Positions 12,540 through 27,138 of a stretch of 64,000 bases of DNA are shown piece after piece (within the stretch, counting starts at the first letter, position 1; the number at the start of each line of letters is the position of its first letter). The notes beneath the pieces were generated by a model. The model was given only the letters and a program-made list of their open reading frames with translations. It made no database searches and was not told the origin of the DNA. The position numbers and the translations under genes were made by a program. Where the stretch lies: assembly GCF_030814215.1 (NCBI RefSeq), contig NZ_JAUSUT010000001.1, forward strand, positions 7,130,001 to 7,194,000, written 5' to 3'. Source of the stretch: Amycolatopsis thermophila (GTDB taxonomy: Bacteria; Actinomycetota; Actinomycetes; Mycobacteriales; Pseudonocardiaceae).

Positions 12540-13334
12540 TCAGGCCGGGAAGTCGTAGAGCGTGGCCGGGTTGGTGTCGAGCACCAGGCGCTCGTGCTCG
12601 CCCGCCCACTCGCGGACCAGATCGAGCGTGCGCGCGTCGTCCTCCTGGCGGAAGGGTTCGACCGAGAACCGGGCCTCCGCACGGCGCGGGCGGCCGCCGG
12701 TGTGCGGCCAGTCGCTGCCCCACACCACCCGCCGGGGGTTGGCGGCTATCAGCGTGCGGGCCAGCGCGGCCACATCCACCGACCGGGACAGCCGGTACGG
12801 CGCCGACAACTTCACGTAGGCGGCGCCCGTCTCCACGGCCCGCAGCAGCGAGCGCGACGGTCCGAGGCCGTAGTGGTCGATCACCACCGGCACGGGCACT
12901 GCGGTGAGGTCCAGTGCGGCGATGACCGCGGGGCCGGCGAAGAGCTGCACGTGCCAGCCCAGGCCGGCGACCCGTTCCGCCGCCTGCGTCAGCGAACGCC
13001 GGGCGGCGGCGACATCGGCACCGCCCGAGCTGGCCACGTTCACCCGCACCCCGCGGACCCCGGCGCGGTGCCAGTCGGCCAGCTCCTCGTCCGTCTCGTG
13101 CCCGCCGAGCACCGCGACCCCGCGCGCGCCCAGCACGGGCAGCGCCTCGAGCAGGCACCGGTTGTCCGCGCCGTAGGGGCTGGGCTGCACCAGGACCGTG
13201 CGCCGGACCCCGAGCGAGGCGTGGAAGGCGCGCAGATCGGCGACCGTCGCGGCGCCCGGGGTGTAGACGCGGTCGGCCGCCCACGGGTAGTGGTCCGGGT
13301 CGAAGACGTGGACGTGGCAGTCGCAGATCCGCAT
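12540..13334 (-). CDS. TIM-barrel amidohydrolase (lactonase type)
   Basis: This 264-aa protein starts MRICDCHVHVFD, giving the metal-binding HxH, and ends with WGSDWPHTGG carrying the catalytic Asp. This fits the COG3618 branch of amidohydrolase 2, which contains 2-pyrone-4,6-dicarboxylate and sulfomuconolactone hydrolases. It probably opens a small lactone. The ATG at 13334 overlaps the upstream dehydrogenase stop by one base (TGATG), so it is the last gene of the five-gene operon read leftwards from 17503. Longer reading frames upstream lie inside the neighbouring gene and are not real. Confidence 0.85.
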   Translation of the reverse strand: MRICDCHVHVFDPDHYPWAADRVYTPGAATVADLRAFHASLGVRRTVLVQPSPYGADNRCLLEALPVLGARGVAVLGGHETDEELADWHRAGVRGVRVNVASSGGADVAAARRSLTQAAERVAGLGWHVQLFAGPAVIAALDLTAVPVPVVIDHYGLGPSRSLLRAVETGAAYVKLSAPYRLSRSVDVAALARTLIAANPRRVVWGSDWPHTGGRPRRAEARFSVEPFRQEDDARTLDLVREWAGEHERLVLDTNPATLYDFPA

Positions 13335-14356
13335 CAGCCCTCCGCGAGTTCGCGCAGCAGACGCAGGTCGTCCTCGGCCACCTCGACACCGTCCCGCCGC
13401 TGCCGGTGGTAGTTGGCCAGCTCGCGCTCCCCGGGGACCTGCACGGGCCGGGCGGGGTCGGCCGGCGGGGTGTCGTGCAGGATGCCGGTGAAGTCGTCGA
13501 CCCGCCCGGCGAGCGCGTCCGCGGGGAGCAGGCGTGTCGCGTCGATCAGGATGAACACGTGCCCGAGGTCCTGGGGCCGGTCGGGGTTGTCGTTCCACGA
13601 GCTCACCCGCGTCAGGTACCCGGCGCCGGACAGCAGGCCGGCGAACATGTCGACCATCAGCGCGAGCCCGTACCCCTTGTGCCCGCCGGCCGGCTGCAGG
13701 AACCCGTCCAGGGCGGCGTGCGGGTCGGTGGTCGGCACGCCGGCTCGGTCGGTCGCCCAGGTGTCCGGAATGGACTCCCCCGCCTTAGCCGCCGCCCGGA
13801 TCTTCGCCCTCGCCACCACGCTCATCGCGATGTCGAGCAGCACCGGGTCACCGCCGGGGCGGGGCACGCCCCAGCCGAGCGGGTTGTTGCCCAGCCGCGC
13901 CTCCCGCCCGCCCCACGGGGCGATGGTCGTGGTGGCGTTGCTGGCGATGATGGACGCGAAACCCTGCGCGGCGGCCTGGAACAGGTAGGGCATCACGGGC
14001 CCGAAGTGGTTGCTGCCGCGGGCGAACGCCGCGCCGATCCCGGTCGCCCGCGCACCGTCGAGCGCGGCTTCCAGGGCGTGGCTGCCGACCAGCGGGCCGA
14101 GTCCGTTGGCGCCGTCGACCCGGGCCAGTGCGGGCGCCACGCGCTCCACGGTCACCTCGGCGGTCACGTCCACCCCGCCGACCAGCGCCCGGTCGAGGTA
14201 CTGGGGGATGCGGCTCACGCCGTGGGTGTGGATCCCGAACAGGTCGGCCAGCACCAGCACGTCCGCGACCCGTGCGGCGTCCGGTCCGGACAGTCCCGCC
14301 GCGCGCAGCGCCCGGTTGGTGAGCTCGGTCAGGTGGGCGGCGCGGATGGCGCTCAT
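13334..14356 (-). CDS. Malate/L-lactate dehydrogenase family oxidoreductase (Ldh2/ComC type)
   Basis: This NAD(P)-dependent 2-hydroxyacid dehydrogenase is of the malate/lactate/sulfolactate/ureidoglycolate family, unrelated to Rossmann-fold lactate dehydrogenases. Marks are DLFGIHTHGVSRIP near residue 38, the substrate/cofactor region GSNHFGPV with the catalytic His, NATTTIAPWGG, NNPLGWGVP and the GGHKGYGLALMVD segment near 220. The 340-aa length is normal. It overlaps the upstream MBL gene by 4 bp (ATGA) and the downstream amidohydrolase by 1 bp. Its substrate is probably a small 2-hydroxy di- or tricarboxylate, inferred from the operon. Confidence 0.88.
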   Translation of the reverse strand: MSAIRAAHLTELTNRALRAAGLSGPDAARVADVLVLADLFGIHTHGVSRIPQYLDRALVGGVDVTAEVTVERVAPALARVDGANGLGPLVGSHALEAALDGARATGIGAAFARGSNHFGPVMPYLFQAAAQGFASIIASNATTTIAPWGGREARLGNNPLGWGVPRPGGDPVLLDIAMSVVARAKIRAAAKAGESIPDTWATDRAGVPTTDPHAALDGFLQPAGGHKGYGLALMVDMFAGLLSGAGYLTRVSSWNDNPDRPQDLGHVFILIDATRLLPADALAGRVDDFTGILHDTPPADPARPVQVPGERELANYHRQRRDGVEVAEDDLRLLRELAEG

Positions 14357-15114
14357 CGGGTCCCTTCCGTGGTGAGGTCGAAGAACGTGGTGTCGGACAG
14401 GCCGGTGCCGAACCAGGCGCGGATCCCGGCGCGGCGCTCGCCGTCGTAGTGCGGCTGCTCACCGCTCCAGCGCAGGGGCACGTCGTGGCCGGGCACGAGC
14501 AGCGTCGACGGCGACTCGCGCCAGAGCGCGCGGATGCGCCGGATCGAGGCGCCGCTGGCTGCCGGGTCGAGCGACATGTCGGCTTCGGTGCTGAGCAGTT
14601 CGGCGCGGTTCTTCGCGGCGTCGCCGCTGAACAGGATCGGCCCGTGCTCGCCGGCCGCACGGAACACCAGGCTGCCCGGGGTGTGGCCGGGCACGGCGAA
14701 CGCTTCGATCCCGGGCAGGAACTCGCCGTCGGCGGTGATGCGCCGGGTGCGCTGGCTGGTGGCCAGGTCCGCCGCGTACAGCTCGGGCAACGGCATGAAC
14801 GTCGCGCCGACGCTGGTCGCCCAGTCGAGTTCGACCGCGCTGATCCACACCGCGGCCCGCGGGAACAACGGGTAGTTGGCCGCGTGGTCGTAGTGGGCGT
14901 GGCTCAGCAGGACGTCGGTGACGTCCGCGGGCGCGATGCCGTGCGCGTCCAGCCGCGACTCCAGCAGTGACCGCATCCCGAACCCGCCGCTGTCGACGAG
15001 GACCAGCCGCCCGCCGCCGTCGAGCAGGGTCACGCTGCTCCAGCCGAGCCCGCCGTGCTCGGTGCTCTTGCCGGGAAACCCTTGCACCAGCGGGAGGAAC
15101 CGGTACCGGGTCAC
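14353..15114 (-). CDS. MBL-fold metallohydrolase, lactonase-like
   Basis: The 253-aa product has the metallo-beta-lactamase signature SHAHYDHAANYP (HxHxDH) near residue 73, a GHTPGSLVF segment with a further metal His, and SGDAA with the bridging Asp. Overall length and order resemble quorum-quenching or other lactonases. The GTG at 15114 overlaps the MFS stop (GTGA), so the gene is translationally coupled. A second potential ring-opening hydrolase in the operon, beside the amidohydrolase, suggests two lactone or ester steps or two isomers. Confidence 0.85.
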   Translation of the reverse strand: MTRYRFLPLVQGFPGKSTEHGGLGWSSVTLLDGGGRLVLVDSGGFGMRSLLESRLDAHGIAPADVTDVLLSHAHYDHAANYPLFPRAAVWISAVELDWATSVGATFMPLPELYAADLATSQRTRRITADGEFLPGIEAFAVPGHTPGSLVFRAAGEHGPILFSGDAAKNRAELLSTEADMSLDPAASGASIRRIRALWRESPSTLLVPGHDVPLRWSGEQPHYDGERRAGIRAWFGTGLSDTTFFDLTTEGTR

Positions 15115-16442
15115 CGCGTCTCCACGGCGAGAGTGCCGGCCTGGGACTGCTCGGCGTGGCCTCCGTCGAACACCTTGCGCGCGAGCCCGCCGGCGACGGC
15201 GGTGACCACCGCGAGCGCGGCGAGGTAGATGGCCAGACCGTAGGGCCCGCCGGTCCGGTCGTTGAGCCAGACGCCGATGATCGGGCCGGTGCCGCCGAAC
15301 ACGGACTGCGCGACGTTGTAGGCCAGCGCGCCGGCGGTGACACGCACGGCGGTGGGGAAGATCTGGCTGATCGCCAGCAGTGCCGGCAACGCGAGCAGGC
15401 CCTTGCACAGCCCGATGGCGGCGGCGCCGGCGAACGCGCCCCCGACGCCGGTCGCGGCCAGCGCGAGCGCCGGGACGGCGAGCACGGCGGTGACGATCCC
15501 GGCGGTCACCAGGGTGCGGCGCAGGCCGAACCGGTCGCAGACCACGCCCATCACGAGCGTGCCGACGATGACCAGCACGTTGCTGACGATGGTGACGTTG
15601 TAGGCGTCGTTCTTCGTCAGGTGCGCCACGCTGGTCAGGAACGTGGTCAGGTACGAGGTGACCGTGGTGCTGATCAGCGCGTAGCTCGCCGTGCAGATCA
15701 CGAACACCAGCATCGCGATCCAGTGCCAGCGGAACGCGTCGCGCACCGGGGTCGCGGCGGTGGCGGCCTCCTCGCGGGCTTGCGTGAGCTGCTGGAACTC
15801 CGGGCTTTCCTCGACGCGGGACCGCAGGTAGACGCCGAACGCGGCGAACGGGAGACCGAGGAGGAACAGGATCCGCCAGCCGTAGGCGTCGTAGGCCGAG
15901 GCGGACATGACGCTCGACAGCAGCCGGGCGAGCACCGAGCCGACCATGATGCCGATGAACGTGGTCGCCACGAGGGTCGCGACGTTCCGGGCCCGCCGCC
16001 GCGCCGGGCTGTGCTCGAACACGAAGCTGATCGCGCTGGCGTACTCGCCGCCCGCGCCCATCGACTGCGCCAGCCGGCACACCAGCAGCAGCACCGGCGC
16101 CACGAACCCGATCTGGGCGTAGGTGGGCAGCACGCCCATCAGGGCGGTGCCGAAGCAGGTGAACAGGATCGTCAGCGACAGCGCGCGGCGGCGGCCGAGG
16201 CGGTCGCCGATGCGCCCGAACACGATCCCGCCGAAGGGCCGGGCGAGGTAGCCGAGCGCGAACACGGCGTAGGTGTTGAGCAGCGCCAGCGCCGAGTTCC
16301 CGCCGGGGAAGAACTTCTGCGCGATGATGGTGGCGACGACGCCGTAGACTCCCCAGTCGTACCACTCGGCGAAGTTGCCCGCGGACGCCGCGGTGATGAT
16401 CCGCAGACGGCGGCGTCCGGTGAAGTCGAAGTCTCTGTTCAT
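15111..16442 (-). CDS. MFS transporter, metabolite:H+ symporter (MHS) family
   Basis: This 443-aa, 12-helix permease shows the MHS pattern: NFAEWYDWGVYG in helix 1, RPFGGIVFGRIGDRLGRRRAL in loop 2-3, LAQSMGAGGEY in helix 4 and GWRILFLLGLP. MHS carriers import carboxylates such as citrate, 2-oxoglutarate, tricarballylate and shikimate with protons. The ATG at 16442 overlaps the dehydrogenase stop (ATGA). It is presumably the uptake system for the operon's substrate, a di- or tricarboxylate being most likely. Confidence 0.9.
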   Translation of the reverse strand: MNRDFDFTGRRRLRIITAASAGNFAEWYDWGVYGVVATIIAQKFFPGGNSALALLNTYAVFALGYLARPFGGIVFGRIGDRLGRRRALSLTILFTCFGTALMGVLPTYAQIGFVAPVLLLVCRLAQSMGAGGEYASAISFVFEHSPARRRARNVATLVATTFIGIMVGSVLARLLSSVMSASAYDAYGWRILFLLGLPFAAFGVYLRSRVEESPEFQQLTQAREEAATAATPVRDAFRWHWIAMLVFVICTASYALISTTVTSYLTTFLTSVAHLTKNDAYNVTIVSNVLVIVGTLVMGVVCDRFGLRRTLVTAGIVTAVLAVPALALAATGVGGAFAGAAAIGLCKGLLALPALLAISQIFPTAVRVTAGALAYNVAQSVFGGTGPIIGVWLNDRTGGPYGLAIYLAALAVVTAVAGGLARKVFDGGHAEQSQAGTLAVETR

Positions 16443-17503
16443 CGGTTTTCCTTGTCCAGGTGGGAAACGATCGCCTCGGCGACGGCGACGGGCCCGCCTT
16501 CGGCGGCGCCCTGCGGGGTGATGCGCACGTGCCCGGCGGCCAGGGCGCCCGCGACGGCGCGGCGGATCCGCTCGCCGTCGCCTGCGTGGCCGAGGTGGTC
16601 GAGCATGAGCGCGGCCGCGAGGATCTGGCCGACCGGGTTGGCCAGTCCCCGTCCCGCGATGCCCGGCGCGCTGCCGTGGATCGGCTCGAAGTAGGCGGTG
16701 TGGTCGCCGATGTTGCCCGAAGGGCACACCGAGATGCCGCCGACCGTGGCGCCGCCGAGGTCGCTGAGCACGTCGCCGAGGAAGTTCTCCATGACCAGCA
16801 CGTCGAACTCCTCCGGCCGCAGCACGAGCGCCTGGGCGGCGGCGTCGGCGTAGAGGAATTCGGTGGTGACGTCCGGGAAACCGGCGGCGACCTCTGTGCA
16901 GACCTCGCGGAACAGCGCGTGGCTGCGCAGCACGTTGCTCTTGTCGACGCAGGTGACCTTGCGGCCCCGGTCCCGGCTGCGGGCGAGTTCGAACGCCCTG
17001 CGGCAGACGCGGAGGGTGCCCTCGCGGGTGGTCATCAGGGTGTCCGACACCGCCCAGCGGTTGCCGACCCCCTTGCCGCGTGAGGCGTAGAGGCCTTCGG
17101 TGTTCTCGCGGACGATCACGTAGTCGATGTCGCCGGGTTCGTGGCCGGCGAGCGCGGAGGTCACGCCGGGCAGCAGGAACACCGGGCGGATGTTGGCGTA
17201 GAGGTCGAGGCCGACGCGCAGGATCCCGCCAAGCAGCCCGGCCTCGGTGCCGTCGGGCAGGCGGACGTCGGGCAGGCCGACCGGTCCCTTGAGGGTCGCG
17301 TCGACCCCGGTGCGCAGCAGCTCGACGTCCTCCGCGGAGCACGCCGTCCCGGTGCGGCGATAGGTGTCCGCGCCCGCGTCCACCTCGACGTAGTCGAGCG
17401 TGTAGCCGTCGCCGGTCACCGCGCCGAGCACGGTGAGAGCGGCGTCCACCAGCTCGGGGCCGATGCCGTCACCCCGGATGAGGGCGATCTTGTGGGCTCG
17501 CAC
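16439..17503 (-). CDS. Isocitrate/isopropylmalate dehydrogenase family protein
   Basis: This NAD-dependent beta-decarboxylating dehydrogenase has ALIRGDGIGPELV at the N-terminus, LDLYANIRPV, VRENTEGLYASRG (Arg and Tyr of the active site), VTCVDKSNVL with the catalytic Lys, the metal-binding DVLSDLGG and EPIHGSAPGIAG. The ENTEGLY form is closer to NAD isocitrate/homoisocitrate and tartrate dehydrogenases than to LeuB. I favour the GTG at 17503 because a perfect GGAGGT lies 4 bp upstream; an ATG at 17515 sits just before that site and has none of its own. It is first in the five-gene operon and divergent from the HTH-citrate synthase regulator. Confidence 0.88.
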   Translation of the reverse strand: MRAHKIALIRGDGIGPELVDAALTVLGAVTGDGYTLDYVEVDAGADTYRRTGTACSAEDVELLRTGVDATLKGPVGLPDVRLPDGTEAGLLGGILRVGLDLYANIRPVFLLPGVTSALAGHEPGDIDYVIVRENTEGLYASRGKGVGNRWAVSDTLMTTREGTLRVCRRAFELARSRDRGRKVTCVDKSNVLRSHALFREVCTEVAAGFPDVTTEFLYADAAAQALVLRPEEFDVLVMENFLGDVLSDLGGATVGGISVCPSGNIGDHTAYFEPIHGSAPGIAGRGLANPVGQILAAALMLDHLGHAGDGERIRRAVAGALAAGHVRITPQGAAEGGPVAVAEAIVSHLDKENR

Positions 17504-17651
17504 CCAGACCTCCATCTTGATAAATCATCATTGATTGTCATCAACATTGACGATATGAAGGACCCTAAGAGGCGCTCTCCGGCGCTGTCAAGACTGATCG
17601 AGCGGACCTCTACACTTGATTCAACATGGATTCGCGACCTGGAGGCGCCCT
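17504..17651. promoter_or_regulatory. Divergent promoter region with TTGAT/ATCAA half-sites
   Basis: The gap between the dehydrogenase operon and the HTH-citrate synthase gene is markedly AT-rich from 17515 to 17560. It contains TTGAT at 17517-17521, an inverted repeat TTGAT-N4-ATCAA at 17531-17544, and another TTGAT at 17616-17620 overlapping a TACACT (-10 like, 17611-17616) in front of the regulator gene. Repeated half-sites at both promoters are what one expects for autoregulation and operon control by the divergent regulator. The binding assignment is inference. Confidence 0.5.
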
Positions 17652-18845
17652 GTGACCGTCGATGCCGACCCGGCCGACGTCGTGTCGATCAGCGAGGCGG
17701 CCACCATGCTCGGCGTCAAGCCCAGCACCGTCTACGCCTACATCAGCCGCAACCAGCTGACCAGCCGGCGGCTTCCGCACGACCGGCGCAGCTGGCTCAC
17801 CCGGAGCGAGGTCGAGCAGTTCGTCCAGCGCAAGGGTGCCCGCGGGGCCGCCGCGACCGAGGCCGCCGACTCCGCGGAGCACGACACCGCCATCGCGCAC
17901 ATCGTCGAGGACCAGCTGCGCTACCGCGGCCGGGACGCCACCGAACTGGCGGTCACCGAGTCCTTCGAGTCGGTGTCGGAACTGCTCTGGCGCGACCGCG
18001 ACGACCAGGGCCGGGCGTGGTCGCTCGACCCCGGTCTCGCCGCGACCATCCACCGGCTGCAGGACACGATGCCGCCGGGCAGCATGCCGCTGGATCGGCT
18101 GAAGGTGACGGCGATGCTGCTCGGCGCGGCGGACCCGCTGCGGTACGACCTGTCGGTCCCGTCGGTGATCTCGGCGGCGCGGCGGCTCGCGCCCGCCTAC
18201 ATCGAATCGCTCCCCCGTCGCGTGTCGGCCGAGGGCTCGATCGCGGCGCGCCTGTGGCGGGGACTGTGCGCGCACGAGCCCGGCGAGGAGCACCTCGGAC
18301 TTCTGTCGGCGGCGCTGGTGGTGCTCGCCGACCACGGGCTGGGCCCGTCGACCCGTGCCGTGCGCGAGGCGGCGGCGACCGCGGCGGACCCCTACTCCGC
18401 GGTGCTGGCCGGCATGAGTGTCGCGAGTGGACTGCTGCTCGGCGGCGGTTCGTCGCTGGCGGTGCAGTCGTGGCTCGCCGACATCGACTCGCCCGCCTCG
18501 GTGCCGGCGATGCTCGGTCAGCGCCTGCGGCGCGGCGACCGCCTGTCCGGGTTCGGCCAGCCCCGGTACCGCCGGGCCGACCCGCGCGCCGCCCTGCTGC
18601 TGGACCTGCTCCACCGGGCCCCGGGCGACGACTGCCGCAAGGCGATCGTCCGCGCGGCCGTCGACCTCGTACGCGAACGGCGCGAGCTGGAACCGAACGT
18701 CGAATTCGCCCTCGGCGCGCTGTGCTTCGTCCACGAGATGGACTACGGCGCCGGGGAAGCCATCTTCGTCACCGCCCGCACCACCGGGTGGATCGCGCAC
18801 GCGATCGAGGTCTACGAGACCAACCCCGCCGCCGGGCGGCTGTGA
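17652..18845 (+). CDS. HTH domain fused to a catalytically altered citrate synthase fold; probable metabolite-sensing regulator
   Basis: Residues 8-60 form a MerR/excisionase-type helix-turn-helix (VVSISEAATMLGVKPSTVYAYI, then RSEVEQFV). Residues about 80-397 follow the citrate synthase fold, including ADHGLGPST (His228, an oxaloacetate ligand in real enzymes), the GGG loop at 260-266, GFGQPRY at 301-306, PNVEF at 348-352 and ARTTGWIAHAIE with Arg376. The three catalytic residues of citrate synthase are all replaced: the His of LHGGA by Leu263, the His of GFGHR by Gln303 and the Asp of NVDFYS by Glu351. The protein therefore likely binds a citrate-like or acyl-CoA ligand without turnover and controls the divergent operon. 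The GTG at 17652 has GGAGG upstream; an in-frame ATG lies 12 codons earlier. Confidence 0.85.
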   Translation: MTVDADPADVVSISEAATMLGVKPSTVYAYISRNQLTSRRLPHDRRSWLTRSEVEQFVQRKGARGAAATEAADSAEHDTAIAHIVEDQLRYRGRDATELAVTESFESVSELLWRDRDDQGRAWSLDPGLAATIHRLQDTMPPGSMPLDRLKVTAMLLGAADPLRYDLSVPSVISAARRLAPAYIESLPRRVSAEGSIAARLWRGLCAHEPGEEHLGLLSAALVVLADHGLGPSTRAVREAAATAADPYSAVLAGMSVASGLLLGGGSSLAVQSWLADIDSPASVPAMLGQRLRRGDRLSGFGQPRYRRADPRAALLLDLLHRAPGDDCRKAIVRAAVDLVRERRELEPNVEFALGALCFVHEMDYGAGEAIFVTARTTGWIAHAIEVYETNPAAGRL

Positions 18846-18870: not shown

Positions 18871-20058
18871 TCAGAGCCCGAAGACCTTGCGGGCGTTGCC
18901 GCCGAGGATGTTGCGCTTGGCGGTGTCGTCCAGGAACGGGATGCTCATCACCCGTCCCGGCACGTCGAAGTCCCAGTGCGGCCAGTCCGACGAGTACAGC
19001 AGGGTGTTCTCGGCGTCCATCGCGTGGAAGGTGGCCTCGAGGAGCTTCAGGTCGGTGATCTCCATCGGCTGGGAGGTGTAGTACATCTGTCGCATGTAGT
19101 CGCTGGGCAGCTGCTTGAGCAGCGGCGCTTCGGACTGGCGCATCAGGTACTCGTGGTCCAGCCGCTGCATCATGAACGGGATCCAGGCCAGACCGCTTTC
19201 GATCCAGATGGTGCGCAGGCCCGGGAACCGTTCGGGCAAGCCGTTGACGATCCAGTTGGTCAGGTGCGTCATGTTGCAGGTGACGAAGGACATCGCGTGC
19301 ACCGACAGGAACCGGTTCATGGTGGCGGTCATGCTGTCCTGCCAGGACGGTCCGGCGTGGAATCCCAGGGGCAGACCGCGTTCCTCCAGTTCGGCGTAGA
19401 TGCGCAGGTATTCGTTGCGGTGCACGCCGGCGTGGCGCTGGCTGGTGACCAGGAAGCCGATCACGTCCGGGTGGTCGCCGAACTCCCGGATGGTCTCCAC
19501 GCACGCGGCGGGGTCCTCGAACGGCAGGCCGAGCATGGTCTTGATGCGCGGGTCACCGGGCAGGATCTGCTCGACGAACCACCGGTTGTAGGCCTTCATC
19601 AGCTGCACGGCGATCCCGGGTTCGGGGTGCAGCCCGATCTCGAGCATCGGCTGGGGGAACACGACCTGGACGTCGATGCTCATGGCGTCCATCGCCCGGC
19701 GCACCAGTTCGACGTCGCGGGGGTTGCCGTCGACGGGGACCGGCTCGGCGAGGCCCGACTGGTGCGGGATGCGGGACCCGGCGTCCTGGAAGGCCAGGCC
19801 GGCCTTGTAGTTGCTGAGCGCGAGCTGCCCGGCCTGCGGGCGGTGCACCATCATCTGTTCGGCCGTGTCGCGCAGCACCGGGTCCTCGACGTAGCCGATG
19901 ATGTCGCGCCACGAGTTGAGCTCGGCGTGGTGGGAGTCCACGTCGACGATGAAGATCTCGTCGAGACCGTACCGCTCGGTGTCCCGGCGCGCGTTCGCGA
20001 GGATCTCCGCGGTGTGGGTCCTGGTGGTGATCTCCTGCGACGGCAGTGGTTCAGGCAT
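18871..20058 (-). CDS. Amidohydrolase 2 family protein (ACMSD-like hydrolase/decarboxylase)
   Basis: The 395-aa product has an N-terminal metal site region (FIVDVDSHHAEL near residue 35), a mid-barrel His in LGFHAGPS and a C-terminal YSSDWPHWDFD with the metal Asp. This layout belongs to the aminocarboxymuconate-semialdehyde decarboxylase-like branch, which contains decarboxylases (resorcylate, orsellinate) and hydrolases of ring-cleavage products. The ATG has AAGGAG. It is the third gene of the operon starting at the Rieske ferredoxin (20763), so it probably acts on a product of the oxygenase system. Confidence 0.85.
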   Translation of the reverse strand: MPEPLPSQEITTRTHTAEILANARRDTERYGLDEIFIVDVDSHHAELNSWRDIIGYVEDPVLRDTAEQMMVHRPQAGQLALSNYKAGLAFQDAGSRIPHQSGLAEPVPVDGNPRDVELVRRAMDAMSIDVQVVFPQPMLEIGLHPEPGIAVQLMKAYNRWFVEQILPGDPRIKTMLGLPFEDPAACVETIREFGDHPDVIGFLVTSQRHAGVHRNEYLRIYAELEERGLPLGFHAGPSWQDSMTATMNRFLSVHAMSFVTCNMTHLTNWIVNGLPERFPGLRTIWIESGLAWIPFMMQRLDHEYLMRQSEAPLLKQLPSDYMRQMYYTSQPMEITDLKLLEATFHAMDAENTLLYSSDWPHWDFDVPGRVMSIPFLDDTAKRNILGGNARKVFGL

Positions 20059-20084
20059 GGTGGCTCCTTGTTCTTCGTGGTGGG

Positions 20085-20387
20085 TCAGGCGGGACGGGAG
20101 AACCACAGCGCGAGGTCGAACGGGTTGAGGTCTCGGGCGCGCAGCAGACCGCAGGCCAGGTCGACCGCCTCGGTCGGGCTCACGTCCGCGCGGAGCGGAT
20201 CGACGGCGCCGCTCGCCTCGGCGAACCGGGCGTGCAGCCGCGCGGCGGCGGTGACGACGGAGCGCAGCGTCTCGGCGCTGATGTCCTGCGGTGCGGTCTC
20301 GGCGGCGTGGATGACCCGGTCGACGTGCGCCTCCAGCGTGGCGGCGACGTCGGCGAGCGCGTCGGTGCGGGTCTCAGAGGGCGACAC
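20085..20387 (-). CDS. Small alpha-helical protein of unknown function
   Basis: I do not recognise this 100-aa protein. It is acidic, predicted mostly helical, has no cysteine besides one near residue 80, no signal peptide and no membrane segment. The GTG at 20387 is preceded by GGAGAG and overlaps the 3' end of the Rieske ferredoxin gene by 14 bp; the amidohydrolase starts 26 bp downstream. Tight placement between two enzyme genes of a degradation operon argues that it is real and serves the same pathway, perhaps as a small subunit or stabiliser. That role is inference only. Confidence 0.7.
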   Translation of the reverse strand: MSPSETRTDALADVAATLEAHVDRVIHAAETAPQDISAETLRSVVTAAARLHARFAEASGAVDPLRADVSPTEAVDLACGLLRARDLNPFDLALWFSRPA

Positions 20388-20763
20388 TGATCTCTCCGTT
20401 CTCCTCGGTCACGGCGAAGGAGCGCAGCCGGAACCGCGGCGCACCGGGGTGCTCGCCGGTGGTGATCCGGTATTCGAAGCCGTGCCAGGGGCAGACGATG
20501 TGCGGATCGTCCTCGTCGAAGGCGAGCCCGAGGCTGTGGCGGTGCGCGTCGAGGCGTTCGCGCACGCCGTCGACCAGCCGGCCCTGGCAGACCGGGCCGC
20601 CCTGGTGCGGGCAGGTGTTCTCGTAGGCGTAGAGCCGGCCGCGGAACCGGAAGAGGCCGATGTGCAGGTCGTCGCGGACGGCGACGACGTACCGGCCGCC
20701 TTCGGCGACGTCGCTGCTGCGGGCGACGACGGAACTCGTCGGCCGTGGGGCGCTGAGGGTCAC
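20374..20763 (-). CDS. Rieske [2Fe-2S] ferredoxin-like protein
   Basis: This 129-aa protein carries the Rieske cluster motif CPHQGGPVC ... CPWHGFEY (CxH and CxxH in the middle third and C-terminal half). Size and lack of other domains fit a Rieske ferredoxin feeding electrons to a ring-hydroxylating oxygenase, or a small Rieske subunit. I chose the GTG at 20763, with GGGAGA upstream; the frame stays open further but only through the promoter region. It is first in the leftward operon with the 100-aa orphan and the ACMSD-like protein and lies behind a conserved operator shared with the alcohol dehydrogenase operon. Confidence 0.88.
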   Translation of the reverse strand: MTLSAPRPTSSVVARSSDVAEGGRYVVAVRDDLHIGLFRFRGRLYAYENTCPHQGGPVCQGRLVDGVRERLDAHRHSLGLAFDEDDPHIVCPWHGFEYRITTGEHPGAPRFRLRSFAVTEENGEISVAL

Positions 20764-20778
20764 AGCAATCTCCCTTCG

Positions 20779-20815
20779 GCTATCACTATGTGATAGCGTT
20801 GAATCGTCCAGTGAT
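20779..20815. promoter_or_regulatory. Two-part operator between the Rieske ferredoxin operon and the IclR gene
   Basis: GCTATCAC-TAT-GTGATAGC at 20779-20797 is a perfect 8-3-8 palindrome. A second weaker box ATCGTCCAGTGAT follows at 20803-20815. The same two boxes with the same spacing occur at 28259-28294 in front of the alcohol dehydrogenase gene; the two 36-bp blocks agree at 29 positions. The adjacent IclR protein is the obvious candidate binder. Confidence 0.8.
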
Positions 20816-20842
20816 CGATCAATGGCAGTGGGGGAATCTCGG

Positions 20843-21619
20843 GTGACAGGCACGAAATCCGGAGCGGACAGCGCTCGCCGCGCGTTGGACATGTTGTTCG
20901 CCTTCACCGAGCAGAAGCCGTCGGCGTCGGTGCGCGAGCTGGCCGAGACCTTGGACATCCCGGCGCCGTCGGCACACCGCTATGTCGCGATGCTGCGCGA
21001 CATGGGCCTGATCGAGGAGGGCAAGCGGGGGCGCTACCACCTCACGATGCGGGTGAACGCGCTGGCCCGGGCCGCCCGGCAGGCCACGCCGCTCGTCGAC
21101 CTCGCCGAGCCGCACATGCGGCGCCTCGCCGAACAGATCGGTGAGGCGGTCCTGCTCATCCGCCTCATCGGCGGTCAGCCGGTGTGCTTCCACCGGGTGG
21201 AGACCCCGAGCCGGTTCCGGTTGTCGTTCGAGCCCGGCCAGCCCCTGCCGATGTTGCGCGGTGCCAGTGTCCGGCTGCTGCTCGGTTCGATGAGCACGGC
21301 CGAGCGGGAGCGCTACCTCGACTCCGCACTCGAGTCCGGGGCTCAGCCACCCGCCCACGGCCGCGAGGAGTTCCTGCGCGAGGTCGAGCGGGACCGCGAA
21401 CGCGGCTGGTCCATCAGCAACGAGGAGATAGACCAGGGTGTCTGGGCCGCCTCCGCCGCCGTCTACGAGGGCGGGCAGGTGGTCGCCGCGATGTCCGCGC
21501 CGTGCCCGGCCTTCCGCATGGACGACGAACGGCGTGAGCTGGTCATCGAGCTGGTGCGCAAGGCCGCGGGCGATCTCTCGCACACCCTCGACCCGGCCTT
21601 CACCGCGCCCGGCGGGTAG
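20843..21619 (+). CDS. IclR-family transcriptional regulator of the degradation regulon
   Basis: The product (about 258 aa) has an N-terminal winged helix (ALDMLFAFTEQKP, VRELAETLDIPAPSAHRYVAML, IEEGKRGRYHL) and a C-terminal IclR effector domain (EAVLLIRLIGGQPVCFHRV, PMLRGASVRLLLG, GWSISNEEIDQGVWAASAAV). The GTG at 20843 has GGGGGA at proper distance; an ATG at 20822 is in frame but lacks a ribosome site. It is divergent from the Rieske ferredoxin operon, convergent with the aldehyde dehydrogenase end of the larger operon, and lies beside the operator repeated at both promoters. It probably represses or activates both in response to a pathway compound. Confidence 0.88.
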   Translation: MTGTKSGADSARRALDMLFAFTEQKPSASVRELAETLDIPAPSAHRYVAMLRDMGLIEEGKRGRYHLTMRVNALARAARQATPLVDLAEPHMRRLAEQIGEAVLLIRLIGGQPVCFHRVETPSRFRLSFEPGQPLPMLRGASVRLLLGSMSTAERERYLDSALESGAQPPAHGREEFLREVERDRERGWSISNEEIDQGVWAASAAVYEGGQVVAAMSAPCPAFRMDDERRELVIELVRKAAGDLSHTLDPAFTAPGG

Positions 21620-21627
21620 GAGCGCGG

Positions 21628-23025
21628 TCATGACCGGTGGATGTGCTTGATCTCGGTGAACTGGTGCACGCCCGCGACACCCCGGGTGCGTCCCAGTCCG
21701 GAGCTCTTGTACCCGCCCGCGGGGATCTCCGGGTACGACGCTCCCCAGCCGTTGATCCACACGGTGCCGGCCTGGACGGCGTCGGCGATCTGGTGCCCGA
21801 GCCGGCCGTCGCCCGTCCAGACGCCGGCCACCAGGCCGTAGGGCGTCGCGTTGGCGAGGTCCGCGGCCTCCCCGGCGTCGTCGAACGGTTCGATCGTCAC
21901 CACCGGTCCGAACACGTCCGTGGTGACGATGCCGGCCCCGCGCGGTGGGGACTCGACGACCGCAGGGGTCACGACGTGGCCGGCGATGCCGCCGGGGTGG
22001 GCCAGTTCGCCGCCGGTCACGTCGCTGTGTTCGCGGGCCCGGTCGATGTGCCCGAGCACGGACGCGGCGTGCGCCGGCGAGATCAACGGGCCGAGCTCGG
22101 TGCGCGGATCCACCGGGTCACCGCCGCGCAGTCCGCGCAGCACCTCGGTGATCACCGCTGTCGTCTCGGCGTGGATCGACCGGTGGACCAGGATCCGCGA
22201 GCACGCCATGCACATCTGTCCGGCGGTGATGACGACCGAACGGGCCAGCAGCGGGAGCGCGGTGTCCAGGTCGGCGTCGGGCAGCAGGATCGCCGGGTTC
22301 TTGCCGCCGAGCTCGAGCAACGGGCGGGTCATCGTCGCCGCGGCCGCGGTGAGCACGCGTTCACCGACCCGGGTGGAGCCGGTGAACGCGACCGCCCGCA
22401 CGAGCGGGTGCCGGATGAGGTGCTGGGCCACCGCCACGTCCCCGTACACGATGGACAGCACGTCGGCCGGGACACCGGCGCGGTGCCCGAGTTCCACGAC
22501 CCGTGTCGTGATGTGCACCGTCTGCGGGGACGGTTTCACGATCGCGGTCACGCCGGCGGCGAACGCCGGTGAGAGGTCGCGCAACAGCAGGAGGACCGGC
22601 CAGTTCCACGGCACGAGCAGCGCCGTGACGCCGGCCGGTTCGCGGACGAGCCGGCTGGTCGTGCCGTCCGGCAGCGTGGTGGTCGCAGCGCCCGCGAGCC
22701 GGGTCAGGCCGGCGTTGTAGTCGAGCGCGCCGGCGGCCCCCGCGACCTCGCGGCGGGCTTCGGCGATCGGCTTGCCGGTCTCGTGCACGATGTCCGCGGC
22801 GAGGCTGCCGGCCTCGGCCCGCAGTGCTTCGGCCCAGGTGCGCAGGACGTGGGCGCGGCGGGTGCTGTCCCGGCTCCAGGAGGGCATGGCGGCGTGAGCG
22901 CGGGCCACGACGTCGTCGAGGTGGTCCCTGCTGGTCGCCGGTACTTCCGGGAGCGCCGCCAGCGAGGTGGGATCGACGGGTGCCGCCGGCGGGTCCCAGG
23001 CCGTGGTCGTGCCGGTGGCCGTCAC
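21628..23025 (-). CDS. NAD(P)-dependent aldehyde dehydrogenase
   Basis: The 465-aa product shows the ALDH superfamily layout: VPWNWPV near residue 139, cofactor loop FTGSTRVGE, catalytic Glu in LELGGKNPAI, catalytic Cys in AGQMCMACSRI, and EVFGP-like DVFGPVV plus the C-terminal PAGGYKSSGLGR. It oxidises an aldehyde to a carboxylate. It starts with GTG at 23025 overlapping the MFS stop (GTGA), and is the last gene of the operon whose first gene is the alcohol dehydrogenase at 28236; alcohol then aldehyde oxidation of the same substrate is likely. Confidence 0.92.
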   Translation of the reverse strand: MTATGTTTAWDPPAAPVDPTSLAALPEVPATSRDHLDDVVARAHAAMPSWSRDSTRRAHVLRTWAEALRAEAGSLAADIVHETGKPIAEARREVAGAAGALDYNAGLTRLAGAATTTLPDGTTSRLVREPAGVTALLVPWNWPVLLLLRDLSPAFAAGVTAIVKPSPQTVHITTRVVELGHRAGVPADVLSIVYGDVAVAQHLIRHPLVRAVAFTGSTRVGERVLTAAAATMTRPLLELGGKNPAILLPDADLDTALPLLARSVVITAGQMCMACSRILVHRSIHAETTAVITEVLRGLRGGDPVDPRTELGPLISPAHAASVLGHIDRAREHSDVTGGELAHPGGIAGHVVTPAVVESPPRGAGIVTTDVFGPVVTIEPFDDAGEAADLANATPYGLVAGVWTGDGRLGHQIADAVQAGTVWINGWGASYPEIPAGGYKSSGLGRTRGVAGVHQFTEIKHIHRS

Positions 23026-24290
23026 TGCTTCCCGTCCACGAGCGCGGCGGCACGGGGGGTGCTCGGTGTGCCCCGGCGGGGTTCGGAGATGCCGAACATC
23101 AGCAGCATGCCGACGAGCGGTCCGGCGGCCAGCGTGCTGAAGGCCGCGAGGAACGAACCGGTACCGGCGAACACCGCACCCACGACGACCGGGACGATGG
23201 TGCTGCCGAGCTGCCAGAACGCGTTGGTCGCCCCGGCGGCGGTCCCGGTGACGGTCGCCGGGACGAGCGTGGGCACCAGCGCGACCATCAGGGTCGTCGC
23301 GGCGTAGGCGACCAGGCCGAGCAGGGCACCGACCCAGAAGAACGACGCGGTCGTGCCGAGACTGCCGAACGCGACGAGCCCGAGTCCGTAGACGCCCAGC
23401 AGCACGATGATGAGCAGTTTGCGGCGCCGCGGGAAGAACTTGTCGGCGATGAAGCCCAGGAGTGGCTTCGACACCGCCGCCATGATCGAGAAGATCACGA
23501 TGACCAGCCCGGCGGTCTTCGACGGGATGTGGTGCCCCTTGATCATCAGGGCGTTGGCCCAGGTGACGAAACCGTAGACACCCCAGAACCCGCCGAAGCC
23601 CGCGACGCTGACCACCAGAAGGTTGCGGTTGCGCAGGATGAGGCTGAAGTCCGGGAGGAAGCGGCGGCGGGTGGAGCTGTTGCGGACCACCGGCGGAGCG
23701 CCGAGCGGGCCGGGCTTGAGGACGAAGAACAGCACCACCGAGAAGCCGATCGAGATCGCGCCGAACAGGTGGTAGCTGGTCTCCCAGCTGTGCCAGGCGA
23801 TCAGGCTCGGTACCACCGCGTTGGCGATACCGAGGCCGATCGAGGTGGCGGTGAGGAAGACGCCCATCACCAGGCCCAGCTCGTTCGGCCGGAACCAGCT
23901 GGTGATCAGCCGGATGCCGGCGGCGTAGTCCGCGCCGGCGAACAGGCCGACCAGAGCCTGGACCGCGATGCCCACGGCCGCGGAGGAGGTCGATCCGAAC
24001 ACCACCATGAGGACCCCGGCGCCGAACAGCGACGCGGTGAGGGTCCGGCGGCTGCCGATGGCATCCGACAGGACACCACCGACAGCGTTGGAGATGACGT
24101 AACCGATGTAGTAGGCCGTCGCGAAGGCCCCGAGACTGGCCAGCGGGACACCGAGCCCTTCGCCGACGAAGACCGACGCCGGACCCCAGGTCGAACGGTC
24201 GATGGAGGTGAGCGTGAACGACGCCCAGCAGGCGAACAGGACGATCCAGCGGTACTTGGAGACGGCGACGTGCGCCGGTGTCGTGCTCAT
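23022..24290 (-). CDS. MFS transporter (anion:cation symporter-like)
   Basis: This is a 422-aa, 12-helix permease. It has DRSTWGPASVFV in helix 1-2, SDAIGSRRTL in loop 2-3, GADYAAGIRLITSWFRPNE near helix 4-5 and a charged central loop. This pattern is closer to hexuronate/phthalate/organic-anion carriers than to the MHS group. The ATG at 24290 begins 32 bp after the reductase stop. Inside a degradation operon, uptake of the aromatic or cyclic acid substrate is the likely job. Confidence 0.88.
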   Translation of the reverse strand: MSTTPAHVAVSKYRWIVLFACWASFTLTSIDRSTWGPASVFVGEGLGVPLASLGAFATAYYIGYVISNAVGGVLSDAIGSRRTLTASLFGAGVLMVVFGSTSSAAVGIAVQALVGLFAGADYAAGIRLITSWFRPNELGLVMGVFLTATSIGLGIANAVVPSLIAWHSWETSYHLFGAISIGFSVVLFFVLKPGPLGAPPVVRNSSTRRRFLPDFSLILRNRNLLVVSVAGFGGFWGVYGFVTWANALMIKGHHIPSKTAGLVIVIFSIMAAVSKPLLGFIADKFFPRRRKLLIIVLLGVYGLGLVAFGSLGTTASFFWVGALLGLVAYAATTLMVALVPTLVPATVTGTAAGATNAFWQLGSTIVPVVVGAVFAGTGSFLAAFSTLAAGPLVGMLLMFGISEPRRGTPSTPRAAALVDGKQ

Positions 24291-24322
24291 CGTTGAGCCT
24301 TCCGTGGTGGGGGTGGTGGGTG

Positions 24323-25288
24323 TCAGAGGTCGAGAACGAGCCGGGCCGAAGCGCACCCGCCGACGCAGATCATCATCGTGGTGTTCTTCTCGCGTTCCTT
24401 GTCGCTGAGAATCGTGTCCTTGTGGATGGGAACGCCCTCGAGCACCTTGGTCTCGCAGGTGCCGCAGAACCCCTCTTCGCACGAGTACAGGACGTCGGGC
24501 TGCTCGGCGCGCACCGCTTCGAGAATCGACTGCCCGGGTTGCACCGTCACGGTCGCCCCGGTCCGGGCCAGCTCGACCTCGAACGGTGCCCCTCCCTGGT
24601 CCGGGGCCGGTTCCGCGAGAGCGGCGGTGAACCGCTCGAACCGCAACGGCAGCCGCGGTCGTTCCCGTTGGACGGTGTCGGCGAGCGCGGTGAGCATCCC
24701 ACCGGGACCGCACGCGTAGAGCATCGCGCCGTCCGGTGCCCCGGCGACGATCCGGGGCAACGGCAACGGGCCCTCGGCATCATCGCTGTAGAGGTGGACT
24801 CCTCCGCCGCGGCGTTCCGCGAGCTCGGCCAGCTCATGGGTGAACGCGAGCGTGTCCCGGCGCCGGCCGCCGTAGTGCAGTTCCCACGGCACGCCGCGCC
24901 CGGCGACCTTCCGGATCATGGCCAGCAGCGGGGTGATGCCGATGCCCCCGGCGACGAACACGTAGGCCGGGGCGGGTTCCAGGTCGAACCGGTTGCGGGG
25001 TCCCCGGATGGACAGCTCACGGCCGACCAGCGCGGTGTCGTGCACCTCGGCCGACCCGCCGCGGCCGTTCTCCTCGCGCAGGACGGCGATGGTGTATTCG
25101 TCTGAATCGGACGGACCGCAGAGGGAGTACTGCCGGACCAGCCCCGAGGGAAGGACGAGGTCGACGTGCGCCCCGGGTTCCCACCGCGGCAGCGGTTCGC
25201 CGTCCGAGGCGCGCAGGCGGAGCGAGACGACACCGTCGGATTCCCACCGCGCCTGCACCACGCGGACCGCGCGCGGCTGCCCGGTCAT
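24323..25288 (-). CDS. Phthalate dioxygenase reductase-type flavin/[2Fe-2S] oxidoreductase
   Basis: The 321-aa protein has three modules in order: a flavin-binding barrel (RQYSLCG near residue 52, IRGPRNRF), an NAD-binding domain (FVAGGIGITPLLAMI, YACGPGGML) and a C-terminal plant-type ferredoxin with CEEGFCGTC and a later Cys. This is the class IA oxygenase reductase (VanB/PDR group), which passes electrons from NAD(P)H to a Rieske oxygenase. The ATG overlaps the stop of the small protein gene by 4 bp. Its partner is the oxygenase encoded at 25821-27104. Confidence 0.93.
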   Translation of the reverse strand: MTGQPRAVRVVQARWESDGVVSLRLRASDGEPLPRWEPGAHVDLVLPSGLVRQYSLCGPSDSDEYTIAVLREENGRGGSAEVHDTALVGRELSIRGPRNRFDLEPAPAYVFVAGGIGITPLLAMIRKVAGRGVPWELHYGGRRRDTLAFTHELAELAERRGGGVHLYSDDAEGPLPLPRIVAGAPDGAMLYACGPGGMLTALADTVQRERPRLPLRFERFTAALAEPAPDQGGAPFEVELARTGATVTVQPGQSILEAVRAEQPDVLYSCEEGFCGTCETKVLEGVPIHKDTILSDKEREKNTTMMICVGGCASARLVLDL

Positions 25289-25791
25289 GCGCCGGCTCCG
25301 GCCGGCTCGCGGGTACCGCCGCGCAGGACCTGCAGGAAGGCGAGGACGAAGCCGTCGTCCTTGAGGATCACGACGTTGTCGGCGGACTCCCGGATGGCGG
25401 CCACCGCCCGGTGCGCATCGGGGTCTTCCCACCGGGCGCCAGGGCTGATGATCACCGCACCCAGCAGCTGTCCGGACAACCGCGCGGCGTCCCCGATCTG
25501 CGCCACCGCGTCCCGGTCGGCCGCTGCCAGGTCGCGGGTGAACAGCACGACGACGTCGGCGTCGTGCATGGCGTGCTCCAGCGGGCTGCTGACCGCCCTG
25601 CCCTCGCCGGTGCACGGCACCGGCTCTGGCGCGAACCGCTGCTGCGCGGGCAGCAGACCGTCATCGGCGATCGTGATGCCCTCGAGTGCGCGACCGGCGC
25701 GGGCACCCACCCACGCCCGGGCACCGGGATCGAGCGGGATCAGCAGGACACGGGCCTCGTACGATCGCCGGGTCCAGGAGATCTGGGCCAT
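25285..25791 (-). CDS. Small protein with degenerate FtsZ/tubulin-like fold signature, no GTP-binding loop
   Basis: This 168-aa protein has no catalytic motif that I recognise. Its pattern of strands and helices follows the N-domain of FtsZ: ARVLLIPLDPGARAWV near residue 13, GITIADD near 38, HDADVVVLF (76-84), DAARLSGQLLGAVIISP (101-117) and IRESADNVVILKDDGFV (133-149). From the Asp-Val of 78-80 to Pro117 the spacing equals that of FtsZ, yet the GGGTGTG nucleotide loop is replaced by RDLAAAD. It overlaps the reductase start by 4 bp and follows the Rieske oxygenase by 29 bp, so it is translated with the oxygenase system. Gene reality is well supported; the fold assignment is inference. Confidence 0.75.
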   Translation of the reverse strand: MAQISWTRRSYEARVLLIPLDPGARAWVGARAGRALEGITIADDGLLPAQQRFAPEPVPCTGEGRAVSSPLEHAMHDADVVVLFTRDLAAADRDAVAQIGDAARLSGQLLGAVIISPGARWEDPDAHRAVAAIRESADNVVILKDDGFVLAFLQVLRGGTREPAGAGA

Positions 25792-25820
25792 GACGCGGAG
25801 TCCCTCCTTCCGGGTGGGTT

Positions 25821-27104
25821 TCAGATGGAGACGAACTCTTCGCCCGGCCGGACGACGAGCGCGTCGCGAGCGCCTTCGTTGAAGGGCACCGATTTCGGCA
25901 GCAGCACCGAGGCGGAACGGACGCGGTGGTGTTCGGTCCGGGTACCGGGCAGCTCGCCGTCGGCGGCCTCCTCGGCCGCCGCGAGCAACCGGCGCCGCGC
26001 GAGGATGATCGCCGCGTCACTGGTGCCGAGCCGTTCCTTGGTGCGGTCGACGATCGGCCCCATGCTCTCCTGCAGGGAGAAGTCCTGGGCGGCGATGCCC
26101 TCGACACCGCTGAAGGTGCGCTTCTCCCGCTGCGCCACGCGGTCGATGAGGTAGTCGTTGTCCTTGTTGGCCAGAGTGCGGTAGGTGCCGGGGATGTACT
26201 TGGCGTGGATGCCCTCGCCCCGGCGCATCGACTCGAGCTCGTCGTCGCGGAGGTCGCGGGTGGGGTGGTAGTTCCAGCTCCACGCCCAGCAGGTCTCGTC
26301 GTCGATGGGAACCCAGGCGTGGCCGCCGAGCGGGTTGTGCGTGCCGAACGGGGGGATGATCGTGTACCACGGCATGATCCACTGGGTGATGCGCCAGTAG
26401 TACCGCTCGTCGTCGACGTTGCGCCGGGCTCCGATCAGCAGCCCGCCGTCGGACTCGATGACCTCGAACTTCGGCCGGGTGTCGGCCTTGAGGTAGGCCA
26501 GGCCCGCGGTGCCGGCGTGCATCGGGTCGTCGTCCATGTTGAAGCGGTGGGCGAACGAGACGTGGCTGGAGTCGATACCGCCCTCCATCGCCTGCATGAA
26601 GTTGGTTTCCTGCAGCCGCTTGGAGACGAACCGCTGCTCGGGCCGCAGGGTCATCCACTCCAGCTCCGGCACCTCCGGTTCGAGCTCCGGTGGCCCCATG
26701 TAGGTCCAGATCACGCCACCGCGTTCCACGCACGGGTACGCGGTTTGCTTGATCTTCTCCCGGAAGCGGGACTCCGGCGGCTCGGAGGGCATGTCCACGC
26801 AGTTGCCGTCCACGTCGTACTTCCAGCCGTGGTAGGCGCACCGCAGGCCGCACTCCTCGTTGCGGCCGAAGAACAACGACGCGGTCCGGTGGCTGCAGAA
26901 CTCGTCGATGAGACCGATGCGGCCCTGGGTGTCCCGGAACGCGATCAGCTTCTCCCCCAGGAGCTGCACACGCACCGGCGGGCAGTCCGGCTCGGGGATT
27001 TCCTCGGCCAGCAGCGCCGGGATCCAGTAGCGGCGCAGCAGGGTGCCCATCTCGGTGCCCTTGTTCGTGCGGACCAGCCGCTCGTTCTGCTCACGGGTCA
27101 GCAA
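25821..27104 (-). CDS. Rieske non-heme iron oxygenase, large subunit
   Basis: The 427-aa product is the catalytic subunit of a ring-hydroxylating or O-demethylating oxygenase of the phthalate 4,5-dioxygenase (class IA) type. The Rieske centre is DEFCSHR ... CGLRCAYHGWKYD (about residues 70-100) and the mononuclear iron ligands are in GGIDSSHVSFAHRF near residue 185. It starts with TTG at 27104, 6 bp after AAGGAG; no nearer ATG or GTG suits. It is second in the operon and has its reductase two genes downstream. The Rieske ferredoxin of the other operon (20374) may be an alternative electron donor. Confidence 0.93.
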   Translation of the reverse strand: MLTREQNERLVRTNKGTEMGTLLRRYWIPALLAEEIPEPDCPPVRVQLLGEKLIAFRDTQGRIGLIDEFCSHRTASLFFGRNEECGLRCAYHGWKYDVDGNCVDMPSEPPESRFREKIKQTAYPCVERGGVIWTYMGPPELEPEVPELEWMTLRPEQRFVSKRLQETNFMQAMEGGIDSSHVSFAHRFNMDDDPMHAGTAGLAYLKADTRPKFEVIESDGGLLIGARRNVDDERYYWRITQWIMPWYTIIPPFGTHNPLGGHAWVPIDDETCWAWSWNYHPTRDLRDDELESMRRGEGIHAKYIPGTYRTLANKDNDYLIDRVAQREKRTFSGVEGIAAQDFSLQESMGPIVDRTKERLGTSDAAIILARRRLLAAAEEAADGELPGTRTEHHRVRSASVLLPKSVPFNEGARDALVVRPGEEFVSI

Positions 27105-27138
27105 GGAGAACTCCTTCTCGTGGTGGGATGTTCGGGGT

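Follow-up and report, generated by a model that had tools for sequence, protein, structure and literature searches.

A helix-turn-helix–citrate synthase fusion protein of Amycolatopsis thermophila is probably a gene switch sensing citrate-like acids

The Locus and Its Neighbourhood

The window, i.e., the whole stretch of 64,000 nucleotides of Amycolatopsis thermophila DNA that was analysed here, holds a gene in which a helix-turn-helix domain is fused to a citrate synthase domain (HTH-citrate synthase, or HTH-CS), divergent from a series of genes for dehydrogenases, a carrier and hydrolases (Table 1). The translation of the open reading frame, with a GTG start at 17652 and a stop at 18845, bears out the coordinates and strand given by a model that had seen the letters and their reading frames (the sequence-only reading), and the motif GGAGG can be read upstream of the GTG, at 17641–17645. 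The divergent isocitrate/isopropylmalate-type dehydrogenase and the carrier that the same reading had described were also recovered, the best NCBIfam match of the carrier being the metabolite/H+ symporter model TIGR00883 (329 bits vs. a cut-off of 443).

Table 1. Genes and candidate regulatory sites around the HTH-citrate synthase gene (positions in the window).
Feature	Coordinates	Strand	Basis or remark
Amidohydro_2 family hydrolase, possible lactonase	12540..13334	-	about 50% identical in L042, L043
Ldh_2 family malate/lactate-type dehydrogenase	13334..14356	-	Pfam; conserved in L042, L043
Metallo-beta-lactamase fold hydrolase, possible lactonase	14353..15114	-	Pfam, NCBIfam; conserved in L042, L043
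MFS carrier, metabolite/H+ symporter type	15111..16442	-	Pfam, NCBIfam; conserved in L042, L043
Isocitrate/isopropylmalate dehydrogenase family gene (Iso_dh), divergent, presumed target	16439..17515	-	Pfam
Palindromic site 2, AATCATCATTGATT	17523..17536	.	18.3 bits; 16 bp from site 1
Palindromic site 1, CATCAACATTGACG	17539..17552	.	best of the window, 23.9 bits
Weaker site 3, TGTCAAGACTGATC	17586..17599	.	11.5 bits
Weaker site 4, ATTCAACATGGATT	17619..17632	.	11.2 bits; 20 bp before the regulator GTG
HTH-citrate synthase fusion gene	17652..18845	+	397 aa; HTH_17 and Citrate_synt Pfam matches

Four of the five other members of the clade of the window protein (L042, L043, L044 and L045) also have the divergent Iso_dh gene, which was not found in L051, while the series formed by Iso_dh, the carrier, the metallo-hydrolase, Ldh_2 and the amidohydrolase is shared by L042 and L043. 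At L051, an Ldh_2 gene is divergent from the regulator instead of Iso_dh and is followed, on the same strand, by genes for TctC and TctA of a tricarboxylate transporter; at L045, a CitMHS-like ORF lies nearby. Across the wider family, an upstream ORF could be called at 83 loci, of which 29 fall in a cluster with a citrate synthase representative and 23 in a cluster with a D-2-hydroxyacid dehydrogenase representative, these clusters resulting from rough ORF picking and being named after the one member of each that was scanned against Pfam. A citrate synthase gene is divergent from the HTH-CS gene in 14 of 21 further loci, and a member with Lys, His and Gly at the catalytic positions (K-H-G), at L047, adjoins MmgE/PrpD and MFS genes. 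From their predicted families, the neighbouring genes appear to fit carboxylate metabolism.

Several other observations were made on these neighbourhoods. The 23 genes of the D-2-hydroxyacid dehydrogenase cluster are divergent from the HTH-CS genes of L083–L123, i.e., in Burkholderiales and relatives. The citrate synthase partners divergent from the HTH-CS genes at L002, L064 and L066 have a Glu where Asp is usual (ANVEF), and an HMGL/homocitrate-synthase-like gene is divergent from the HTH-CS gene at L048:10299-11552. In the window itself, the region 18871–27212 resembles aromatic catabolism, with an Amidohydro_2 protein, an aldehyde dehydrogenase, an MFS carrier, an IclR regulator near the PcaR/PobR model (below its cut-off) and a LigXa_C-bearing Rieske protein; another Rieske protein and a ferredoxin reductase were recognised there by eye alone.

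Domain Architecture and Active-Site Residues

Two Pfam models exceed their cut-offs in the 397-aa protein: HTH_17 over residues 11–61 (31.2 bits vs. 27) and Citrate_synt (PF00285) over residues 78–391 (162 bits vs. 27), the latter alignment spanning positions 9–351 of the 357 of the profile. The fusion of a DNA-binding domain to a citrate synthase domain is thus confirmed. The label “MerR/excisionase-like” that had been attached to the first domain is right as far as the helix-turn-helix is concerned, but the Pfam profiles MerR (25.1 bits vs. 28.2) and MerR_1 (14.2 vs. 21.6) and the NCBIfam excisionase model TIGR01764 (21 vs. 28.8) all remain below their cut-offs. All NCBIfam citrate synthase scores are far below theirs (e.g., 116 bits vs. 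421 for TIGR01800).

In the alignment, the positions of the catalytic His, His and Asp are occupied by Leu263, Gln303 and Glu351, respectively, whereas H228, R312 and R376, presumably the residues of the same chain that grip oxaloacetate in citrate synthases, are retained; L263, Q303, E351, H228 and R376 all lie where the sequence-only reading had placed them. Its claim that all three catalytic residues are lost holds for Leu263 and Gln303, but Glu351 is weak evidence because other citrate synthases carry a Glu at that position. Two other predicted citrate synthases of the same genome (L002 and L003, motif NVEF) combine it with both histidines, and it is also found in PDB chain 2c6x (“citrate synthase 1”, which we take to be B. 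subtilis CitA); Glu351 alone was thus rejected as proof of lost activity.

Structure prediction, one of the checks that had been proposed for this gene, yielded a confident AlphaFold2 model (39 sequences, mean pLDDT 90.6, pTM 0.81), in which residues 65–75 form a loose linker. The model and the Citrate_synt match support the citrate synthase fold, but the latter is less complete than the earlier “nearly complete” implied, the C-terminal arm (R-P...Y-x-G in L001 and L003) being absent from the window protein and from the five other clade members. This arm is also shortened in some members with His-His-Asp (e.g., L004, L011 and L012). Known citrate synthase enzymes are dimers, and their C-terminal arm extends to the other subunit.

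Family Distribution and Evolution of the Catalytic Residues

The source genome has six PF00285 matches, including a second HTH-CS gene (L004), which keeps His-His-Asp and has a citrate synthase gene as its divergent neighbour. Also in this genome is a distant citrate synthase homologue, L006 (G000:C1:78597-79193), which scores 60 bits to PF00285, shows altered motifs (e.g., GLGHHVHK) and gives no tblastn match to the window query at 1e-10.

At a threshold of 1e-40, the window protein has 79 matches, spread over 77 of the 346 genomes sampled from the same family; 30 of these loci were fetched, and five others of the 79 had already been obtained in earlier searches. A plasmid collection held no match at 1e-40. 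A scan of named genomes, in which loci were chosen by patterns including part of the helix-turn-helix, returned 123 relatives (80 retained) from Actinomycetota, Chloroflexota and Burkholderiales. The set of 113 members used below consists of 35 proteins from the family-genome searches and 78 from the named-genome scan, after leaving out duplicates (L002, L005, L013, L050, L052 and L042–L049) and proteins without a helix-turn-helix (L001, L003 and L006). HTH_17 and Citrate_synt both match in 39 of the 39 members scanned (E of 0.001 or less). Close relatives of the window protein are few (G258, 68% identity; G003, 67%; Nonomuraea cypriaca, 60%; G070, 52%; G167, 46%), and in one of these five, L016, the search alignment flagged a stop. 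A search of 394 genomes of the class at 1e-64 added no close relative, the 11 other matches being 39–43% identical.

The catalytic triad His-His-Asp (HHD) is present in 100 of the 113 members, the altered ones carrying LQE (3), HQE (3), HED (2), KHG (2), HQD (2) or HAD (1); position by position, the expected residue is found in 108 (His), 102 (His) and 105 (Asp) members. H228, R312 and R376 are unchanged in 113 of 113 while the catalytic positions vary, which speaks for the sensor function proposed by the sequence-only reading. There are fifteen invariant positions, the catalytic three not among them: T26, Y28, Y30, S32 and R33 in the helix-turn-helix, whose constancy is partly selected because part of it served as a search pattern in the named-genome scan, and R92, L99, H228, R238, G302, D310, R312, R376, G379 and H383 in the remainder of the protein.

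In a careful tree of 51 rows, from which the three catalytic columns were excluded, parsimony counts five changes between kept and changed catalytic residues. The window clade is well supported (100/99), as are the LQE members within it (100/92), and parsimony suggests that Gln303 and Glu351 arose before Leu263. A single origin of all 13 altered rows was rejected by a tree test (p = 0.0039), while a tree uniting the window clade and the K-H-G pair was not (p = 0.227). In a quick tree, the starred branches force just two changes between kept and changed residues. The survey of homologues for co-loss of the catalytic residues, another of the proposed checks, thus reveals 13 altered members out of 113 and, by parsimony and the tree test, several independent changes.

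Palindromes Upstream of the HTH-CS Genes

Within 330 bp upstream of the HTH-CS genes, the palindrome TCAA-NN-TTGA has 88 matches in 82 of the 113 loci, vs. 0.16 expected from the rest of the loci, which is mostly coding DNA; a later control used the upstream regions of other ORFs. In the latter comparison, restricted to the loci of named genomes, the palindrome is found in 53 of 77 HTH-CS upstream regions vs. 4 of 1088 for other ORFs (as delimited by rough ORF picking), and in 0 of 492 other gaps. No other 4-base dyad with a spacer of 0–20 is as common (112 loci), and 20 dinucleotide shuffles of these 112 loci have the palindrome in 0 or 1 locus each. The loci behind these counts are not independent; when they are grouped by protein cluster, some member with the palindrome exists in 41 of 48 clusters at 80% identity and in 14 of 17 at 50%. 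Finally, it lies within 400 bp in all 11 of the loci fetched later, eight of which are from one genus.

An exact site within 330 bp is absent from 31 of the 113 loci. L091 has no upstream sequence, and L065 and L107 have little. When scored with a site matrix over 450 bp, eight loci have no good site (L010, L054, L020, L033, L055, L099, L125 and L129), and L065, L066 and L083 also score low, if less clearly. Broken down by residue class, the exact palindrome within 330 bp is found in 75 of 100 HHD members, 3 of 3 HQE, 2 of 2 HED and 2 of 3 LQE (the third, L014, has its site at -382 and was counted as a miss), and in 0 of 2 KHG, 0 of 2 HQD and 0 of 1 HAD, the last being without upstream sequence. 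With three quarters of the His-His-Asp members carrying the palindrome, the DNA-binding role looks older than the loss of catalysis, which would be a later step in a few lineages; the idea that catalytic loss had made the regulator, as the sequence-only reading had it, is not supported by this distribution.

In the window, the four best sites of the 64 kb all fall between the HTH-CS gene and the divergent dehydrogenase, at 17523–17632, according to the matrix, which was trained on sites outside the window's clade. The annotated start of the dehydrogenase is preceded, at 8–37 bp, by sites 1 and 2. A promoter/terminator scan of 17450–17720 found none, and none was expected either. The upstream palindrome, the four sites in the gene's own intergenic region and the divergent dehydrogenase shared by four of the five other clade members all give strong, if indirect, support to the earlier proposal of a regulator.

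Genome-wide, the exact palindrome is not enriched overall (7 sites vs. 9 for the reversed pattern), but two of the seven are at the two HTH-CS genes of the genome, one of them being the core of site 1 (17541–17550). The flanks of the other five were all inspected, and the surrounding ORFs for one of them. None of the five was counted as a target: the site at 1264209 is inside an ORF, the core is CC/GG at 1560116 and 7298753, and the two near 3126682 have a different one, AT. These last two belong to G000:C1:3126682-3126742 (L133 and L134), where two copies of GTCAAATTTGA(C/T) are 51 bp apart; this palindrome is perhaps the site of another regulator.

Discussion

In our view, the window gene quite probably encodes a citrate synthase-derived transcription factor that senses a ligand and regulates its own gene as well as a carboxylate operon. 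Its N-terminal helix-turn-helix would bind the palindromes between the regulator gene and the divergent Iso_dh operon, so that the bound regulator would control both its own gene and that operon, while the citrate synthase domain, as a dimer, would hold the two DNA-binding domains together. Judging from the conserved pocket residues H228, R312 and R376, the probable ligand of the latter domain is a carboxylate or 2-oxo acid of the pathway, whose binding would in turn alter that of DNA. Repression relieved by the ligand appears to be the likeliest mode because of the position of sites 1 and 2 just before the dehydrogenase start. As for enzyme activity, the window protein is presumably devoid of it.

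A palindrome does not prove its binder, and here the point is concrete because AotM, an unrelated regulator of M. bovis from the TetR family, binds the same palindrome, TGTCAATGTTGACA (PMC11351531, in the available part of the article, where a citrate synthase domain is not described). The sites could thus belong to some other regulator, e.g., a TetR protein, for which the HTH-CS gene would be just one regulated gene among others. This is unlikely, considering that the palindrome accompanies HTH-CS genes in Actinomycetota, Chloroflexota and Burkholderiales, with differing neighbours, and that the HTH-CS protein has a conserved helix-turn-helix itself.

Slightly less likely still, the window protein would combine DNA binding with an altered enzyme activity, such as that of a lyase or of a synthase acting on another substrate. 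The preserved H228, R312 and R376, the predominance of His-His-Asp in the family (100 of 113) and the Glu of other citrate synthases at the Asp position would be in line with it, but Leu and Gln have taken the place of the two histidines, there is no C-terminal arm, and the activity of Caulobacter CitA needs the active-site histidine: with H303 changed, CitA does not replace E. coli GltA, yet keeps its regulatory (cell-cycle) role (PMC7083601). The match of H303 to Q303 here rests on the GltA H306 given in that paper and on chain 6zu0 (GFGH histidine 306), rather than on a direct alignment. A decaying gene without function would account for the changed catalytic residues and the missing arm, but it is very improbable when five other genomes encode relatives with 46–68% identity, in four cases next to the divergent Iso_dh, when third codon positions are the most variable between orthologs and when the model of the protein is confident.

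The autoregulatory sensor that we favour has counterparts on several sides. With type II citrate synthases and 2-methylcitrate synthases (PF00285, TIGR01800), the window protein shares the domain and the oxaloacetate-holding His and two Arg, but it differs by its N-terminal helix-turn-helix, the three replacements (His to Leu, His to Gln and Asp to Glu) and the lack of a C-terminal arm. The His-His-Asp HTH-citrate synthases, such as L004, have the same two domains and the upstream palindrome, but their catalytic residues are intact, and the divergent neighbour of L004 is a citrate synthase gene rather than Iso_dh. Regulators derived from enzyme folds have precedents in GabR/PdxR (aminotransferase) and the ROK repressors; the likeness lies in a helix-turn-helix joined to a ligand-binding enzyme fold, on other folds, and we do not claim common ancestry. 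Caulobacter CitA is also a citrate synthase whose regulatory role survives a change of the active-site histidine, but it is an active enzyme, for which the part of PMC7083601 at hand describes an indirect action on CtrA rather than DNA binding.

In the open-licence literature, we recognised no study of an HTH-citrate synthase and none tying the palindrome to one, in agreement with the prior statement that no characterised member was known; as far as literature searches reach, the citrate synthase version of an enzyme-fold regulator, with its DNA site, is new. The adjacent S. coelicolor genes sco5831 and sco5832 bear the names citA3 and citA4 and are both described as putative citrate synthases (PMC12323332); one of them may be an HTH-citrate synthase, i.e., a regulator annotated as an enzyme.

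For the family as a whole, we lean, with less assurance than for the window gene, towards an unrecognised group of citrate synthase-based transcription factors, spread over Actinomycetota, Chloroflexota and Burkholderiales, which would bind TCAA-NN-TTGA and sense 2-oxo or tricarboxylic acids through the old active site, perhaps with acyl-CoA. Most of the proteins examined retain the catalytic residues and might act as trigger enzymes reading their own substrate, while several lineages, including that of the window, would have abandoned catalysis and been recruited to new carboxylate operons. If so, some genes annotated as extra citrate synthases would be regulators, as our finding suggests. 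It offers a regulator family, a likely DNA site and, within one fold, a gradation between members with intact and with altered catalytic residues, which makes the step from enzyme to sensor directly testable.
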